64,000 nucleotides of DNA from Methylosarcina fibrata AML-C10. GTDB taxonomy: Bacteria > Pseudomonadota > Gammaproteobacteria > Methylococcales > Methylomonadaceae. The stretch's first letter is position 1, and the number at the start of each line of letters is the position of its first letter. Under the pieces are notes generated by a model. It ran no database searches. It worked only from the letters and a program-made list of their open reading frames with translations, and had not been told where the DNA came from. The translations under genes and the position numbers were made by a program. Location: positions 4,485,786 to 4,549,785 of the forward strand of contig NZ_KB889965.1 in assembly GCF_000372865.1 (NCBI RefSeq), in the 5' to 3' direction. Of this stretch, positions 49,468 to 56,263 are shown piece after piece.

Positions 49468-50481
49468 ATGAACAAAGCAACTATTTTAACGGGAATTACC
49501 ACGACCGGCACGCCGCATTTGGGCAATTATGTCGGTGCCATCCGGCCGGCGATTGCCGCCAGTAAAGACGACAATGTCCGGCCTTTTTATTTTCTTGCCG
49601 ATTATCACGCGCTGATTAAATGCCAGGAGCCCGAGCGTGTCAGGCAGTCCAGTCTGGAAATTGCCGCCTCCTGGCTGGCCTTGGGGCTCGACACTGCCAA
49701 TGCGGTTTTTTACCGACAGTCGGACGTGCCCGAGATTATGGAACTGACCTGGATACTCACCTGCGTGACGGCCAAGGGATTAATGAACCGGGCGCACGCC
49801 TACAAGGCGGCGGTGGCCGATAATGAGCAGGGCGGCGAGAGGGATGCCGATAAGGGCATCACCATGGGCTTGTTCAGTTACCCGATTTTAATGGCGGCCG
49901 ATATTCTGATGTTTAATGCCAACAAGGTTCCGGTCGGCAAGGATCAGGTTCAGCACATCGAAATGGCGCGGGATATCGCCGCCCGCTTCAATCATATTTA
50001 CGGCGAACATTTCACCTTGCCCGAAGCGGTCGTCGAGGAAAACAGCGCGACGTTACTCGGTCTAGACGGACGAAAGATGAGCAAGAGTTACAACAACACC
50101 ATCCCGCTGTTCGAGCCGGAGAAAAAATTAAAAAAACTGATAAGTAAAATCAAAACCAATTCGCTCGAGCCGGGCGTGCCCAAGGAGACCGAAGGCTGTA
50201 CTCTGTTCGGCATTTACAAGGCGTTCGCCACGCCTTCGGAAGTGGCCGAAATACGCCGACGCTACGCCGAAGGCATCGGCTGGGGCGAAATGAAGCAGAT
50301 TCTGTTCGACTATATCAACGACCATATCGCGCCGGCCAGGGAACGTTACGAAGCCTTGCTTGAGGCGCCCGATCACATCGAACAGCAATTGCAGGAAGGT
50401 GCGGAAAAAGCCAGAGCGATCAGCATTCCGTTTCTCCGGGAAATCCGCAAAGCGGTCGGGATTTCGAGGATCTCTTCGTGA
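49468..50481 (+). CDS. trpS: Tryptophanyl-tRNA synthetase
   Basis: Class I synthetase charging tRNA-Trp. 337 residues: the HIGH-like TPHLGN (15-20), [11 protein letters not shown], the tryptophan-pocket segment [36 protein letters not shown], and the KMSKS signature [10 protein letters not shown]. Its last four bases overlap the GTG start of the following membrane protein, so the two are translationally coupled. About 290 AT-rich bases lie in front. Confidence 0.97.
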
Positions 50482-51194
50482 AGAAAGGGCAATTCGGCGA
50501 CTGGCTTAGAGAAAGCCTGCTGTTTATCGCTCGCGGTCCTTTGGTGTGGGTCGGCTACACCCTGGCGACCGGCGTCATTTTATTGGTAGGACGTATTTCC
50601 CTGGCGTTAGGCATTTTTTTCTCGGTCACCTCGTTATTTGTCGGGGTCGGGATTGCGAAATACATCGACCTTAATTATTCGGGCGACAATCCGGTCCCTT
50701 TGGCATGGGCGATCAGGAAAAGCCTGCCTCTGGCCGTTCTGGCGGCGGCCAGCCTGGTTGTCTGCTGGTTCGGCATCAATGTCGTGGCCAATCTTGTCTC
50801 GGGCGATCTTCTGAAGACCGGACGCTTTTTCTTTTACTGGGAGCTGACCCCGGAGAATCTGCACCGCCGGCCGATGCGGGAAATCGCGAGCTGGTTTTAT
50901 ACCTACGCCAACGTCGCGCTTGTTTTTGTGCTGGTCATGTTGTCCACCTTTGCCAGTTGGTTCAGTTATCCGCTCATGCTGTTCAGAAACTACAGTTTCA
51001 GTCAGGCCAGAGAGCGGGGCGTTCACGAGATCTCTCGAAACCGGGGCGCTTTTTATAAACTCTACGGTTTTATCGTTCTGGAAGCGCTGCTCTGCTCCTC
51101 GGTGACGCCCTTGTTGACGCCCGTTTTGTACATGCTGGTATCCACGCTGATGTATGTTACGTATCAGGATCTTTTGGGCGTCAAGGACGGCTAG
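50478..51194 (+). CDS. Polytopic membrane protein, unknown function
   Basis: A 238-residue protein with about five predicted membrane helices (for example [60 protein letters not shown], and a C-terminal hydrophobic pair). I do not recognise a family with certainty. The GTG start overlaps the trpS stop (GTGA), implying coupled translation, an odd partner for a tRNA synthetase. Its stop overlaps that of yigZ on the opposite strand in a shared CTAG. Confidence 0.72.
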
Positions 51195-51818: not shown

Positions 51819-53318
51819 ATGAAAATCGTCAGGCCGCATACTTCCGAAACGATTCGTCATCAGGTAGACCGCCGCCTTTTGATTGACGAGTTTAAAACAT
51901 TTTTACCGGCCGCATCGATTATTTCCGAAACGGAAGCGCTCAGGCCTTTCGAATGCGACGGCTTGTCGGTGTATCATTGTCTGCCCTGGCTGGTTCTGTT
52001 GCCGGATACCGTCGAGCAGGTGCAGCGCATCCTGGCGATCTGCCATCGATACGGGGTGCCGGTCGTGGCGAGAGGCGCCGGTACGGGACTGGCCGGAGGG
52101 GCGCTGCCGTTGGAAAACGGTGTATTGTTGAGTCTCGCCAGGCTCAATCAAATTCTCGAAATCGACTGCGCCAACCGGCTGGCGAGGGTTCAGCCGGGGG
52201 TGCGCAATATCGCCATTTCCCAGGCCGTGGCTCAACAAGGCTTGTTCTACGCTCCCGATCCGTCGTCGCAGATCGCCTGCACGATCGGCGGCAACGTCGC
52301 CGAAAACTCCGGCGGAGTGCACTGCCTTAAATACGGCCTCACGACCCATAATATTCTACAGGTCAGGATCGTGACGATGGACGGCGCCCTGGTTACCGTG
52401 GGAAGTCACGGCCTGGACGGCCCCGGACTGGATTTACTGGCTTTAATGGCCGGTTCGGAAGGCTTGCTCGGCGTGGTGGTCGAAGTGACTGTCAAGTTGT
52501 TGCCCCTGCCCGAACATTGCGAAGTCATTCTGGCTGCCTTTGCAGACGTCGAACAGGCGGGCTCGGCGGTGGCGGCCATCATCGCTTCGGGTCTGCTGCC
52601 GGCCGGATTGGAAATGATGGACCAAGCCGCCATTAAAGCCGCGGAAGATTTTATTCATGCCGGCTATCCGGTAGAAGCCGAAGCCATTCTGTTATGCGAA
52701 CTGGACGGTACTCGAAAGCAGGTCGAAGAAGAACTCGACCGGGCCTGCGAGGTATTGAAATCGAACGGGGCTTATGAATTAAGACGGGCCGGAAGTCGGG
52801 AGCAAAGACAGGTTCTCTGGGCAGGACGCAAGGCCGCATTTCCGGCGGTCGGGCGGATTTCTCCGGATTATTATTGCATGGACGGCACGATTCCCCGACG
52901 GTTTCTGGTAAAAGTGCTGAAATCCATAGCGGAATTGTCCGAGCGTTACGGTCTGGCGGTAGTCAACGTGTTTCATGCCGGCGACGGCAATCTGCATCCT
53001 CTCATCCTGTACAATGCCGACCGTCCGGGGGAACTGGAAAAAGCGGAACGGTTCGGCGGCGACATTCTCGAACTCTGCGTGGCCGTCGGCGGCACGATCA
53101 CCGGCGAGCACGGGGTGGGCGTGGAAAAGATCGATCAGATGTGTTTCCAGTTCAGCGAAAACGAGCTGGCCCAATTTCGGGCCGTGAAAGAAGCGTTCGA
53201 TGAAAAAGGGTTGCTCAACCCCGGAAAAGCCGTGCCGTCTTTGCACCGGTGCGCGGAACTGGGGGCCATGCACGTGCATCGGGGCGTGTTGCCGCATTCC
53301 GAACTGGAACGGTTTTAA
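51819..53318 (+). CDS. glcD: Glycolate oxidase subunit GlcD-like FAD enzyme
   Basis: FAD-linked 2-hydroxyacid dehydrogenase subunit, 499 residues from the ATG at 51819, the length of E. coli GlcD. The FAD domain shows PVVARGAGTGLAGGALPLENGVLLSL and IGGNVAENSGGVHCLKYGLT. The C-terminal half has NVFHAGDGNLHPLILY with metal-binding His, and GGTITGEHGVGVEKI. GlcE and GlcF normally follow in the same operon but are absent here, so the partner subunits must be elsewhere or the enzyme works alone, as some D-lactate dehydrogenases do. A longer frame from 51717 overlaps yigZ. Confidence 0.88.
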   Translation: MKIVRPHTSETIRHQVDRRLLIDEFKTFLPAASIISETEALRPFECDGLSVYHCLPWLVLLPDTVEQVQRILAICHRYGVPVVARGAGTGLAGGALPLENGVLLSLARLNQILEIDCANRLARVQPGVRNIAISQAVAQQGLFYAPDPSSQIACTIGGNVAENSGGVHCLKYGLTTHNILQVRIVTMDGALVTVGSHGLDGPGLDLLALMAGSEGLLGVVVEVTVKLLPLPEHCEVILAAFADVEQAGSAVAAIIASGLLPAGLEMMDQAAIKAAEDFIHAGYPVEAEAILLCELDGTRKQVEEELDRACEVLKSNGAYELRRAGSREQRQVLWAGRKAAFPAVGRISPDYYCMDGTIPRRFLVKVLKSIAELSERYGLAVVNVFHAGDGNLHPLILYNADRPGELEKAERFGGDILELCVAVGGTITGEHGVGVEKIDQMCFQFSENELAQFRAVKEAFDEKGLLNPGKAVPSLHRCAELGAMHVHRGVLPHSELERF

Positions 53319-53824
53319 ACGATCTGGCCCAGTCCGAACGCTCCGAAATAAGTCGTAATGAAATAGAGTAGCGACAGGGCCATGCTGGCCAATACATTGA
53401 TGCCGACCACTTTTTTAATGATGTAGGTCACCAGGGCATAATCCCAGAGGATTAATGAAAAGGTAATGTAGTAGCTGAGAGGATCGTCGCTTACCGTCAG
53501 CCAGATGATGACCGGCACGATGAACAAGGACACCACGTTCGCGCACAGTATCAGCGCTGTCGCCACCTGTACGAAAGCATACAGCGTCTTGTTGAAGAAC
53601 AGCAAAATACCGATGAACAGCAGCGTCAGCAATGTTTCAAAGCTGACTTCATAAAATGACTCGATCGGATCGTCGGTCATGTTCGCCTGCATGAAATACT
53701 CGACCAAATAATAAAAGATCAGGTTTTGTTTGAAAAAACTGGTCGATCTCGTTAACTCCAACGGGTTGTGTTTAAACCAGCAAAGAGGTAGGTATTGTTT
53801 TATCAGGTCGACGTAGGCTACCAT
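53315..53824 (-). CDS. Yip1-like polytopic membrane protein
   Basis: A 169-residue membrane protein with about five helices (FETLLTLLFIGILLFFNKTLY, VATALILCANVVSLFIVPVIIWLTV, and a C-terminal ALVTYIIKKVVGINVLASMALSLL). The arrangement, with LTVSDDPLSYYI in a loop, resembles the bacterial Yip1 domain, but the call is by pattern only. It is next to the dynamin-like GTPase on the same strand (about 80 bases), so the two may work together at a membrane. Its stop overlaps that of glcD in a shared TTAA. Confidence 0.6.
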   Translation of the reverse strand: MVAYVDLIKQYLPLCWFKHNPLELTRSTSFFKQNLIFYYLVEYFMQANMTDDPIESFYEVSFETLLTLLFIGILLFFNKTLYAFVQVATALILCANVVSLFIVPVIIWLTVSDDPLSYYITFSLILWDYALVTYIIKKVVGINVLASMALSLLYFITTYFGAFGLGQIV

Positions 53825-53905
53825 GATCCGGTGAGTAGGTTAGGCAAGGTCAGTATCTGTTACAACGTTTATGTCCTTTGATTGTTCTGACGGTGAAGGA
53901 ATGCT

Positions 53906-55303
53906 TTAGTGTCCCGAAGTATCCGAAAAACCCGGAACGAGATGCTCGTTATAAGCACTGAAGCTGTCGTTCAGGGCCTGCACCAGCTCCTGGGTTTTGG
54001 CCGAAAGCTGTGCCAGGCGGGATTTGGTTTTCTTGTTCCATCCGGCCGGCTCCGAGATGGGCAGCACGATGCGGGCGAAGGTCAGATTTTTTTCGAATAA
54101 ATTGCTCAGGTTTTCGAGCAAATGCAGTTCTTTTTGCCGTGCATTGAGCTGATTGATGATGACCTTGGCGTGAAGTTTGCTGATGACCAGATGAATGGGA
54201 ATCATGAAGGCTATCAGCACCAGGAGCGAAATCGGGCCTAGAATCGGATCCACCAGCGTGGCCAGGACTATCCCTGAATTAATTTCGGCAAACAGGCTCA
54301 ACACGATGATAAAGCTCAGGATCAGCAAGCTCGACATGGTGGCTCTTTCTTTCCAGGTGGTGATGCCTTTCTTTACTTCCGGAATAACCACGCCTTCAAT
54401 TTCGCGAATGTTTTGTTCCAGCGATTGCAGGATACGGTAGGTGCGGTTATTCGCTACCGTAGCCAGGTACTGGTCCATTGAAGAAAAATCGGTTTTGGTG
54501 GTTTGCGGTATGAAACTGGCTTCCTGACCGGGAAGGATAAGAAACTGGCCGCCGGTGATGCCTTTTTCTGCCAGCTTTCGCTGCCAGGAAGCGATGATCT
54601 CGCTGTGGCGGGAAGAGCTCAGCGCGGCTCCCGGCGCATCGATGAGATAGGTGAATTTGCTGGAATCCTGAGCGGAAGCAATGTTCGCCAGCAATTCGTC
54701 CACCATCGGAGAAGAGGAGTCGAACGTATCGGTAAATATCAGTACCAGATCGGAATGCTCGATGCTGTATCGGGTCAGATAACGGGTGATCGGGCTGACG
54801 GAAGCGCTGTCGATATCGGGCGCATCGATAAAAAGCCGGCCTTTTAACCGTTCGCTCGGGATGGTTTTTAATTCAAGATAAGAATTGATTCGGCCGCCTT
54901 CGCCGGGCTGTTGCTGCTCAATTTTCTGGCTGATCTGATAAAACGGGAAGCGGTGATCGACGTCCAGCGCGGTGCCGGGCAGCGTGGCGGAGTTCGGCTG
55001 GGCGTTATGCAGCAGGACGGTAAATTTTTGGCCGGAGGTCTGGATTCCCGACAGTTGCATGTCGGAGCCGAAATAGCCGTTCATGAACCGGGATTTGGCG
55101 GTCGAACTGCCGCCTATCAGGGTGATGATGGGCCACCAGGAGTTTTTGACGGCGGTTGTTTCATCGGTATCGAGAAGACTCAGATCGTATTCGAGTTGGT
55201 CGAGTTCATGAAACACTCTGGAAGCTTTTTGCAATATCGGATTGTCATTGGCAAAATATTTTTCAAGGTTGAGCAGATACTTGCTCACTGTTTTTTCAGC
55301 CAT
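53906..55303 (-). CDS. Dynamin/EHD-like membrane GTPase with degenerate P-loop
   Basis: A 465-residue protein with a P-loop-like GGSSTAKS (64-71); the glycine before the lysine is alanine. A probable switch I (SGQKFTVLLHN, 90-100) recalls the TTDRFTVLM of EHD proteins. RLFIDAPDIDS (156-166) is a degenerate DxxG with D160, followed by LVLIFTDTFD. A second conserved block is QFLILPGQEAS. Two adjacent membrane helices (about 322-345 and 355-378) and a helical C-terminus follow. I infer a dynamin-superfamily protein anchored in the inner membrane; a pseudo-enzyme is possible. Start MAEKTVSKYL. I cannot name the family. Confidence 0.55.
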   Translation of the reverse strand: MAEKTVSKYLLNLEKYFANDNPILQKASRVFHELDQLEYDLSLLDTDETTAVKNSWWPIITLIGGSSTAKSRFMNGYFGSDMQLSGIQTSGQKFTVLLHNAQPNSATLPGTALDVDHRFPFYQISQKIEQQQPGEGGRINSYLELKTIPSERLKGRLFIDAPDIDSASVSPITRYLTRYSIEHSDLVLIFTDTFDSSSPMVDELLANIASAQDSSKFTYLIDAPGAALSSSRHSEIIASWQRKLAEKGITGGQFLILPGQEASFIPQTTKTDFSSMDQYLATVANNRTYRILQSLEQNIREIEGVVIPEVKKGITTWKERATMSSLLILSFIIVLSLFAEINSGIVLATLVDPILGPISLLVLIAFMIPIHLVISKLHAKVIINQLNARQKELHLLENLSNLFEKNLTFARIVLPISEPAGWNKKTKSRLAQLSAKTQELVQALNDSFSAYNEHLVPGFSDTSGH

Positions 55304-55864
55304 TATTTTTTACACCCTGTTTGTAGTTTTTATTTTTGATTAGAAAGCCAAGCTGATTCACGTTCCGGAAAGGCGGGGGAGAGTCTCGATTCTCTATTGC
55401 CTGCCGGTCACGTTTGCTGCTTCCGAGATTAATGATATTGCTCTCGTTTTGTGGCATTGCTTCTTTATAAATTGCCGACGGATAGAAGAAATAGCCATTT
55501 TCATCGTTTTAGGATGATACAAAAAACAGAGAAAATAGCAAAGGTATTTTATCTTGGGAAAAGATCGGCGCGGAGAGACGCCGTGGTTGTCCTTCTTCAC
55601 CTGGGATTTTCTCTAAAAAGAAGAGTGGACCGAAGGACTGGATACAGAAATCGCCGAGACGATCACGTAACAAAGCAAAAGCCACATGCCCGCCGGCTTC
55701 GGCTTACTGCAGACTTTTTTGCAGGGATCTTTCTTCGTCCGTTCCGCCATTGTGATAAAAGACGTCATTCACTAAAATGAGCCGGTAGGACTTGGCCGCA
55801 TTTTCAGGCTAAAATTGAACGGCGTATTATTATCTTGAACAGATCGACTGGTGCAATTTATTTC
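55304..55864. other. Intergenic region, no gene supported
   Basis: About 560 bases divergent between the GTPase gene and a lipoprotein gene. Frames at 55451-55780 (plus) and 55394-55600 (minus) are basic, lack ribosome sites and look random. The only structure I see is a small GCCG/CGGC hairpin near 55691. Confidence 0.45.
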
Positions 55865-56263
55865 ATGGCAAGGCAAAATAACAATTTGAGTTATCTTAGA
55901 ATCGCGATGCTGGCTTTATTTATGGCGGCGTTGCCGAGTTGCACGGCCCCTTTGTTCGGAGCATACGGTCCGATCGGCCATTCCAGGGAAGAGTTCGAGC
56001 ATTATGTGGAAGAAGTCTTCCGGTTTCAGAACGAGATGACCACCAAGGTGATGATGCTTCTTGAAACCGGGGAGAAAAGCAATATGGAGCAGATCTTGCA
56101 ATCCGAACAGCACATGCACCAGATCTGTGAACCGCTCAACGTGTATGTTTCCCGTGAAATGGACGGTTTAAGCGAGCCGTTTTCATTGCGGCGCCAGGTC
56201 ATGAAATCCACTACCGATTGCGATCATGCCGCGCACGAACTGGACAAATTGCTGGAAGAATAA
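55865..56263 (+). CDS. Small outer-envelope lipoprotein, unknown function
   Basis: A 132-residue protein starting at the ATG at 55865. A lipoprotein signal (LRIAMLALFMAALPSC, Cys26 as lipid site) is followed by TAPLFGAYGPIGHSREEFEHYVEEVFRFQ. The mature part is helical and acidic with two further cysteines (HQICEPL and TTDCDHAAHEL) that could form a disulphide. I do not recognise a family. It is convergent with nadB. Confidence 0.7.
   Translation: MARQNNNLSYLRIAMLALFMAALPSCTAPLFGAYGPIGHSREEFEHYVEEVFRFQNEMTTKVMMLLETGEKSNMEQILQSEQHMHQICEPLNVYVSREMDGLSEPFSLRRQVMKSTTDCDHAAHELDKLLEE

Follow-up and report, generated by a model that had tools for sequence, protein, structure and literature searches.

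The window studied here, a stretch of 64,000 nucleotides from Methylosarcina fibrata AML-C10 (contig NZ_KB889965.1; host genome of 4.98 Mb), encodes a 465-amino acid (aa) protein that we name G (positions 53906-55303, minus strand) and, 81 bp directly downstream on the same strand, a 169-aa neighbour that we name Y (53315-53824). G comprises N-terminal helices, a G-domain fold and a helical domain with a transmembrane hairpin. We propose, with a probability of roughly 0.58, that G derives from EHD/dynamin proteins, has become a pseudo-GTPase and, anchored by its hairpin, serves as a nucleotide-independent membrane scaffold.

Loss of the nucleotide-site motifs across the family

A protein search found G in 139 of the 151 genomes of the window's family, the Methylomonadaceae (own genome included), representing 28 of 29 genera. 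In the rest of the order, homologues occur in 17 genomes of two families (f4 and f6) and in none of the remaining genomes sampled there. A ten-sequence profile built from the order homologues gave matches in 65/274 genomes at class level (62 besides two from the window's family and one from the order) and in 50/398 at phylum level (49 besides the window's own genome); these outside searches used a canonical profile, which recovers the degenerate form as well, retrieving the window protein (G000) at E 2.4e-94. Our reading covered 132 of the 139 copies in the family (four of the seven left unfetched being fragments) and 99 of the 128 homologues outside it; to the latter the order contributed 10 of its 17, all canonical, the class 59 of 62 and the phylum its 30 best scorers out of 49. 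The 10 order and 59 class sequences are referred to below as the 69 canonical homologues.

In the window protein, the P-loop reads GGSSTAKS (residues 64-71; 55091-55114, minus strand like all parts of G), with A69 replacing the Gly that precedes Lys. The DxxG motif reads DAPD (residues 160-163; 54815-54826), the base-recognition motif, LNQxD in homologues, reads IDAPG (residues 221-225; 54629-54643), and the switch I stretch, mostly GxQAVDD in homologues elsewhere, is lost (residues 86-92; 55028-55048). By alignment, the full P-loop GxxxxGK[ST] and the fourth motif N/T-x-x-D were each present in 0/132 family copies and DxxG in a single one (L049), whereas G1, G3 and G4 were all intact in 99/99 homologues read elsewhere (69/69 and 30/30). 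An alignment-free P-loop pattern, applied to the first 260 residues, was found in 0/132 family copies versus 68/69 canonical ones. An earlier note on this DNA had described the degenerate P-loop and DxxG and two adjacent membrane helices, all of which are present in G, and had argued that the A-for-G change raises the chance of lost catalysis. This understated the case, as the three motifs tested have decayed in almost all family members read, and the A-for-G change itself is lineage-wide in the window's family. The Ala of the AKS sequence occupies the position mutated in RhoA G17A. According to PMC3359313, this mutant of RhoA serves as a nucleotide-free form.

No second, canonical copy of G was found in the family genomes by the protein search, which covered matches to G itself; 138 of the 139 matching genomes have one G match, and G072 has two pieces. 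A tree of 63 representatives split the family and canonical sets with full support (100/100); its root is the midpoint, and loss after an orthologous split is not proved by it. Judged from these sequences, G has most likely lost both nucleotide binding and hydrolysis.

It seems improbable to us that G is instead still a nucleotide-dependent membrane remodeller, which would use its atypical AKS P-loop for weak binding or for another ligand and switch shape accordingly. This alternative draws on residues that weigh against our proposal: P-loop Lys70 is retained in 117/132 family copies, AKS is the commonest P-loop form (75/132), and Gly-Lys survives in 6/132, followed by Asn or Ala, such that weak or altered nucleotide binding may persist. 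Moreover, Ser71 is kept in 86/132 copies and D160 in 102/132, and, EHDs being ATPases (PMC13427840), it would be immaterial if just the guanine motif had gone. Against this, subclades have lost different parts of the site. Members of genera g7 and g21 hold P-loop scraps (GKA, GKN), and other branches carry GAE, SKT, VKK or ASS, the erosion having taken a different path from branch to branch. Given these varied losses, together with the absence of switch I and G4 and of any full P-loop, the pattern resembles drift and not a new conserved site.

Kinship and fold of G

Dynamin_N is the sole Pfam match of the window protein at E ≤ 10, and it scores below the cut-off (E 0.022, 15.2 bits versus 27 bits); a C-terminal EH domain had no Pfam match at the same threshold, and NCBIfam gave no match for G or Y. 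Among other family members, L050 and L049 reached 15.9 and 26.8 bits against Dynamin_N, and four more that were scanned had no match. Two homologues from sister families match this domain at E 3.7e-15 and 3e-16 (56.8 and 60.3 bits). G homologues in other genomes of the family share 39-67% identity. When a 36-sequence profile (window included) was compared with PDB sequences, the top chains were EHD4 (E 0.0022) and EHD2 (E 0.0051), within a range of 0.0022-0.0056, and the alignment paired LPGTALDVDxRxPF of G with the EHD loop bearing the KPF motif (VDPKKPF in EHD4).

Structure comparison pointed in the same direction. The model of G was built from 17 sequences and has a mean predicted local distance difference test score (pLDDT) of 59, hence its support for the fold is moderate. 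Its best Foldseek match was EHD4 (E 2.1e-9); ranks 1-34 were all dynamin-family chains, and eIF5B begins at rank 35. With VIA-align, EHD4 (5mtv) again came out best (Z 17.2, 253 residues aligned, root-mean-square deviation 5.9 Å), and the top non-EHD chain was mitofusin (Z 14.2), followed by IniA (13.7), SynDLP (12.6), BDLP (12.4) and LeoA (11.5). With EHD4/EHD2 leading by profile, Foldseek and VIA-align, the model and the alignments indicate that G is of EHD/dynamin type and has the fold of P-loop GTPases, as the earlier note had suggested.

The region equivalent to the EHD KPF loop (residues 107-124, TLPGTALDVDHRFPFYQI; 54932-54985) retains Pro-Phe, with Lys being substituted. Within LPGTALDVDHRFPFYQI (residues 108-124), P120 is present in 132/132 and F121 in 131/132 family copies, with Y, L or F, and in no copy Lys, at the preceding position. 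What had been noted as an EHD-like switch segment is more aptly called the region equivalent to the EHD KPF loop; switch I proper lacks conservation.

A defence system was considered and rejected, G and Y having no PADLOC match at E ≤ 1. One canonical homologue gave weak LeoBC/LeoA matches in PADLOC.

Purifying selection and a shift of constraint to the hairpin

G is maintained by strong purifying selection and is no dead gene. The ratio of nonsynonymous to synonymous substitution rates (dN/dS) ranged from 0.034 to 0.181 in 34 non-overlapping pairs that share 80-98.5% identity, as calculated by the simple Nei-Gojobori method (NG86), with dS exceeding 1 in 11 of the 34 pairs. These values, together with open frames over the match in most genomes, led us to reject a decaying pseudogene; single stop codons inside the matched stretch occur in G137, G014, G009, G117, G126 and G034. 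For Y, dN/dS was 0.027-0.310 in the 26 of those pairs having both genes, one pair with saturated dS being excluded.

Mean column entropy was markedly higher in the family than in the canonical set at the P-loop (1.58 versus 0.18 bits, 9-fold), switch I (2.13 versus 0.13 bits, 17-fold), DxxG (1.56 versus 0.00 bits) and the fourth motif (2.07 versus 0.27 bits). The same held for the positions just past DxxG (2.87 versus 0.65 bits), those past the fourth motif (2.03 versus 0.94 bits) and the SDLVLxF segment (0.69 versus 0.17 bits). In the KPF-loop region the two sets were about equal (0.60 bits in the family, 0.67 in the canonical set), and in the N-terminal helices, the helical domain and the membrane helices entropy was lower in the family, for which, to the detriment of our proposal, the narrower taxon accounts in part. 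Positions at least 98% identical made up 1/35 of the nucleotide pocket in the family versus 25/35 in the canonical set, and 6/55 versus 0/55 of the hairpin, a comparison that is weakened because the limits of pocket and hairpin were set after the sequences had been inspected; for the KPF-loop region the counts were 6/18 versus 7/18.

The hairpin (residues 321-375; 54179-54343) contains hydrophobic helices at residues 321-339 and 356-374 and carries E340, D352, P353 and P369. Each of these four residues is invariant in the family (132/132), as compared to 1, 3, 30 and 0 of the 69 canonical homologues, respectively, and the alignment-free pattern E-x10-13-DP past residue 280 was found in 132/132 versus 8/69 sequences. 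Two helices were counted by hydropathy in 124/132 family and 60/69 canonical proteins, a crude count given that in L083 one of the two falls in the G domain. The hairpin is likely ancestral, and constraint in the family has moved to it from the nucleotide pocket.

The neighbouring protein Y

The pairing pointed out in the earlier note recurs across genomes: Y lies downstream of G on the same strand at 103/132 loci, with a median gap of 42 bp, and at one further locus 501 bp away. A Y profile detected a close copy (E < 1e-50) in 107/151 family genomes, 106 of which also have G; the lone genome with a close Y but without G is G129, whose Y sits where a contig ends. Y belongs to a set of several paralogues, and in g7 and g20 genomes its closest relatives lie on contigs other than that of G. 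No Y neighbour was detected by BLAST clustering in 70 canonical loci, where flanks were short and the picking of open reading frames missed G in nine.

That G and Y stand side by side through inherited synteny alone, of no functional consequence, and that Y has a job of its own, is unlikely, although it is the alternative that we take most seriously. In its favour, and against our proposal, at 28/132 loci the flank that was read lacks Y (at one of them it spans just 9 bp). Moreover, the wider Y family, with a homologue in 117/274 class genomes (three of them Methylococcales), occurs without G in many Gammaproteobacteria. The other neighbours, however, are shuffled more. Among 18 wide loci (window included), some of which end at contig ends, Y is common to 14 by clustering, and to 14/17 plus the window by BLAST, versus 8 for trpS, 8 for nadB and 4 for glcD. 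The G-Y gap also stays short. The G-Y pair is not obligate, and Y belongs to a wide gammaproteobacterial family. Of the membrane-remodelling module postulated earlier, three elements are supported, namely EHD/dynamin kinship, membrane anchoring and a conserved neighbour; remodelling itself stays hypothetical.

Y has five predicted membrane helices preceded by an N-terminal helix and is a distant candidate for the Yip1 superfamily. None of 22 Y members matched Pfam Yip1 (PF04893), and the own genome had no Yip1 match at E ≤ 10 in a search that was positive in 11/14 control genomes. Among six Y relatives scanned, L262 (Y-profile E 1.5e-19) showed a nearly full-length Yip1 match (E 3.6e-5, 24.1 bits, below the 28.6 cut-off) and L256 another below cut-off (E 0.049); the other four had no match. 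The earlier label 'Yip1-like' would accordingly be a fair description of Y and not a statement of membership, the apparent link running via an intermediate only. The Y model (pLDDT 92.4; helices 28-50, 53-77, 81-112, 115-141 and 144-168) had no Foldseek match in the PDB at E ≤ 0.001, and its best VIA score (Z 6.4) equals background for helical bundles; a Yip1 structure was absent among the PDB matches listed for Y, which excludes nothing.

A paralogue, Y2, is encoded in the own genome (L232 1492-2004; G000:C1:2110002-2110505) and has relatives in other family genomes. It lies between a gene resembling lpxB and one for a PAS/SpoIIE-like phosphatase.

Distribution and genomic context

By gene content the window's family is methanotrophic, PF02461 (PmoA/AmoA family) being present in 129/151 family genomes and 29/29 genera. 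The 12 family genomes without G include all five sampled of genus g22 (G021, G046, G068, G086 and G100), which are small. A strict link of G to methane oxidation or internal membranes is not supported: in g22, PF02461 is found in 3/5 genomes and G in 0/5, so that possession of the enzyme does not depend on G.

The methanotrophic gene content would fit a further alternative, in which G became a regulatory or receptor subunit of some other membrane process, such as putting together a membrane enzyme complex; Y would then be the working membrane protein, and membranes would not be shaped at all. The invariant acidic residues of the hairpin and the conservation of Y alongside G could be read in the same way. 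In the own genome, however, the PF02461 gene lies ~660 kb from G, and the retained KPF-loop region suggests that self-assembly was kept. The conserved neighbours in the wide loci, such as trpS and nadB, are moreover housekeeping genes, though no search for an enzyme partner was made. On balance, we consider such a recruitment quite improbable.

Upstream of G and divergent from it lies a small lipoprotein-like gene (55835-56263, plus strand), which is kept in part of the family and whose association with G is uncertain. It was found in 30 of 50 loci compared for orientation, being divergent from G in 30/30, and the two genes may share a promoter region. Further away, the window encodes a 238-aa membrane protein (50478-51194, plus strand; best Pfam match 0.071) that is common to 7/18 wide loci.

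The canonical loci have neighbours of their own. The dynamin is often last in its gene row (L105, L110, L113, L127, L138 and L091), and clustering of 70 loci, in which short flanks make all counts lower bounds, revealed a ParA-like ATPase in at least 7, a tetratricopeptide repeat (TPR) protein with an N-terminal hydrophobic segment in at least 14, a DUF302-like protein in at least 12 and a membrane coiled-coil protein in at least 17. In some of these loci, convergent mreC/mreD-like genes are found downstream. The DUF302-like partner has no match in the own genome, and across the order Methylococcales only weak partial matches were seen (16/121 genomes, best E 1.1e-8). From these sequences, the canonical dynamin module looks as if it had been taken apart in Methylococcales.

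Proposed mechanism

In the scaffold model that we favour, the two-helix hairpin would anchor G in the membrane. G keeps the dynamin/EHD fold along with the KPF-loop region, the KPF loop being an oligomerisation interface in EHD2/EHD4 according to PMC13427840, and could assemble via this retained loop and helical-domain contacts, as well as via the newly conserved acidic hairpin (E340...D352-P353). In most genomes, G would act together with the five-helix protein Y. By the simplest mechanism, G would assemble on the membrane either constitutively or under the control of a partner, with no nucleotide switch, the hairpin and Y supplying anchoring or control.

Several points concerning the loop weigh against this model. 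The Lys of KPF is absent from family and canonical homologues alike, and the KPF region falls within a low-confidence part of the G model (blocks of 43-62): pLDDT blocks in the G domain are mostly 75-86, yet 43-67 at residues 81-90 and 101-140. In addition, one interface of EHD filaments crosses the nucleotide pocket and is held to account for ATP-dependent assembly (PMC13427840), so G, having no working pocket, may form assemblies of another kind or none.

Where G acts, be it the inner membrane or the internal membranes of methanotrophs, is a matter of conjecture. To our knowledge, no shaping factor is known for the latter. A bolder version, in which a whole bacterial family gave up the mechanochemical site of an EHD-type dynamin and turned the protein into a nucleotide-free skeleton whose new acidic hairpin took over the work by docking on the Yip1-like Y, and which helps to form or maintain the stacked internal membranes of gammaproteobacterial methanotrophs, is tentative and on present evidence rather unlikely. 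Membrane shaping by dynamins is usually explained by nucleotide-driven assembly. The loss of the nucleotide site across many genera, with the rest of the protein under strong selection, would provide a natural experiment separating scaffold from motor. As a candidate open to testing, G could also act on the membranes of methanotrophs, organisms that are important in the methane cycle.

Comparison with known systems

G shares with EHD1-4 the G-domain fold, the KPF-loop region with its Pro-Phe and the helices flanking the G domain. It differs in having no EH domain match, a predicted membrane hairpin, lost nucleotide motifs and no KPF Lys. PMC13427840 describes three interfaces in EHD2/EHD4 filaments, namely the EHD-specific dimer, a contact of the KPF loop with the helical domain of the neighbour, and a third that spans the nucleotide pockets and to which the ATP dependence is likely due. 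Measured against that description, G has kept part of the KPF interface hallmark (Pro-Phe, not Lys) and lost that of the pocket interface.

The canonical homologues of other Pseudomonadota, for which no description was found in the literature searched, resemble G in their WWP start, PF loop and helical tail with hydrophobic helices. In contrast to G, they have an intact G1, switch I, DSPGFDA and LNQxD, and their neighbours are ParA-like, TPR, DUF302-like and coiled-coil membrane proteins. BDLP, IniA, LeoA, SynDLP and further bacterial dynamin-like proteins share the dynamin superfamily fold with G, with fold scores below those of EHD, and have intact GTPase sites. Y resembles the Yip1 family (PF04893) in its five predicted membrane helices, without itself matching it.

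PseudoGTPases and bacterial dynamin-like proteins are already known, whereas a family-wide dynamin/EHD protein without nucleotide motifs was not found described in the open-licence literature searched, nor in passages of PMC5827413 and PMC12136173. In CENP-M, the p190RhoGAP domains and Rnd, the fold is kept and catalysis, and sometimes nucleotide binding, is lost (PMC10211241). Unlike G, none of the pseudoGTPases named there is a dynamin/EHD-type membrane protein. G combines a GTPase fold with the absence of catalytic motifs under continued selection, which are among the features by which a pseudoGTPase is recognised.

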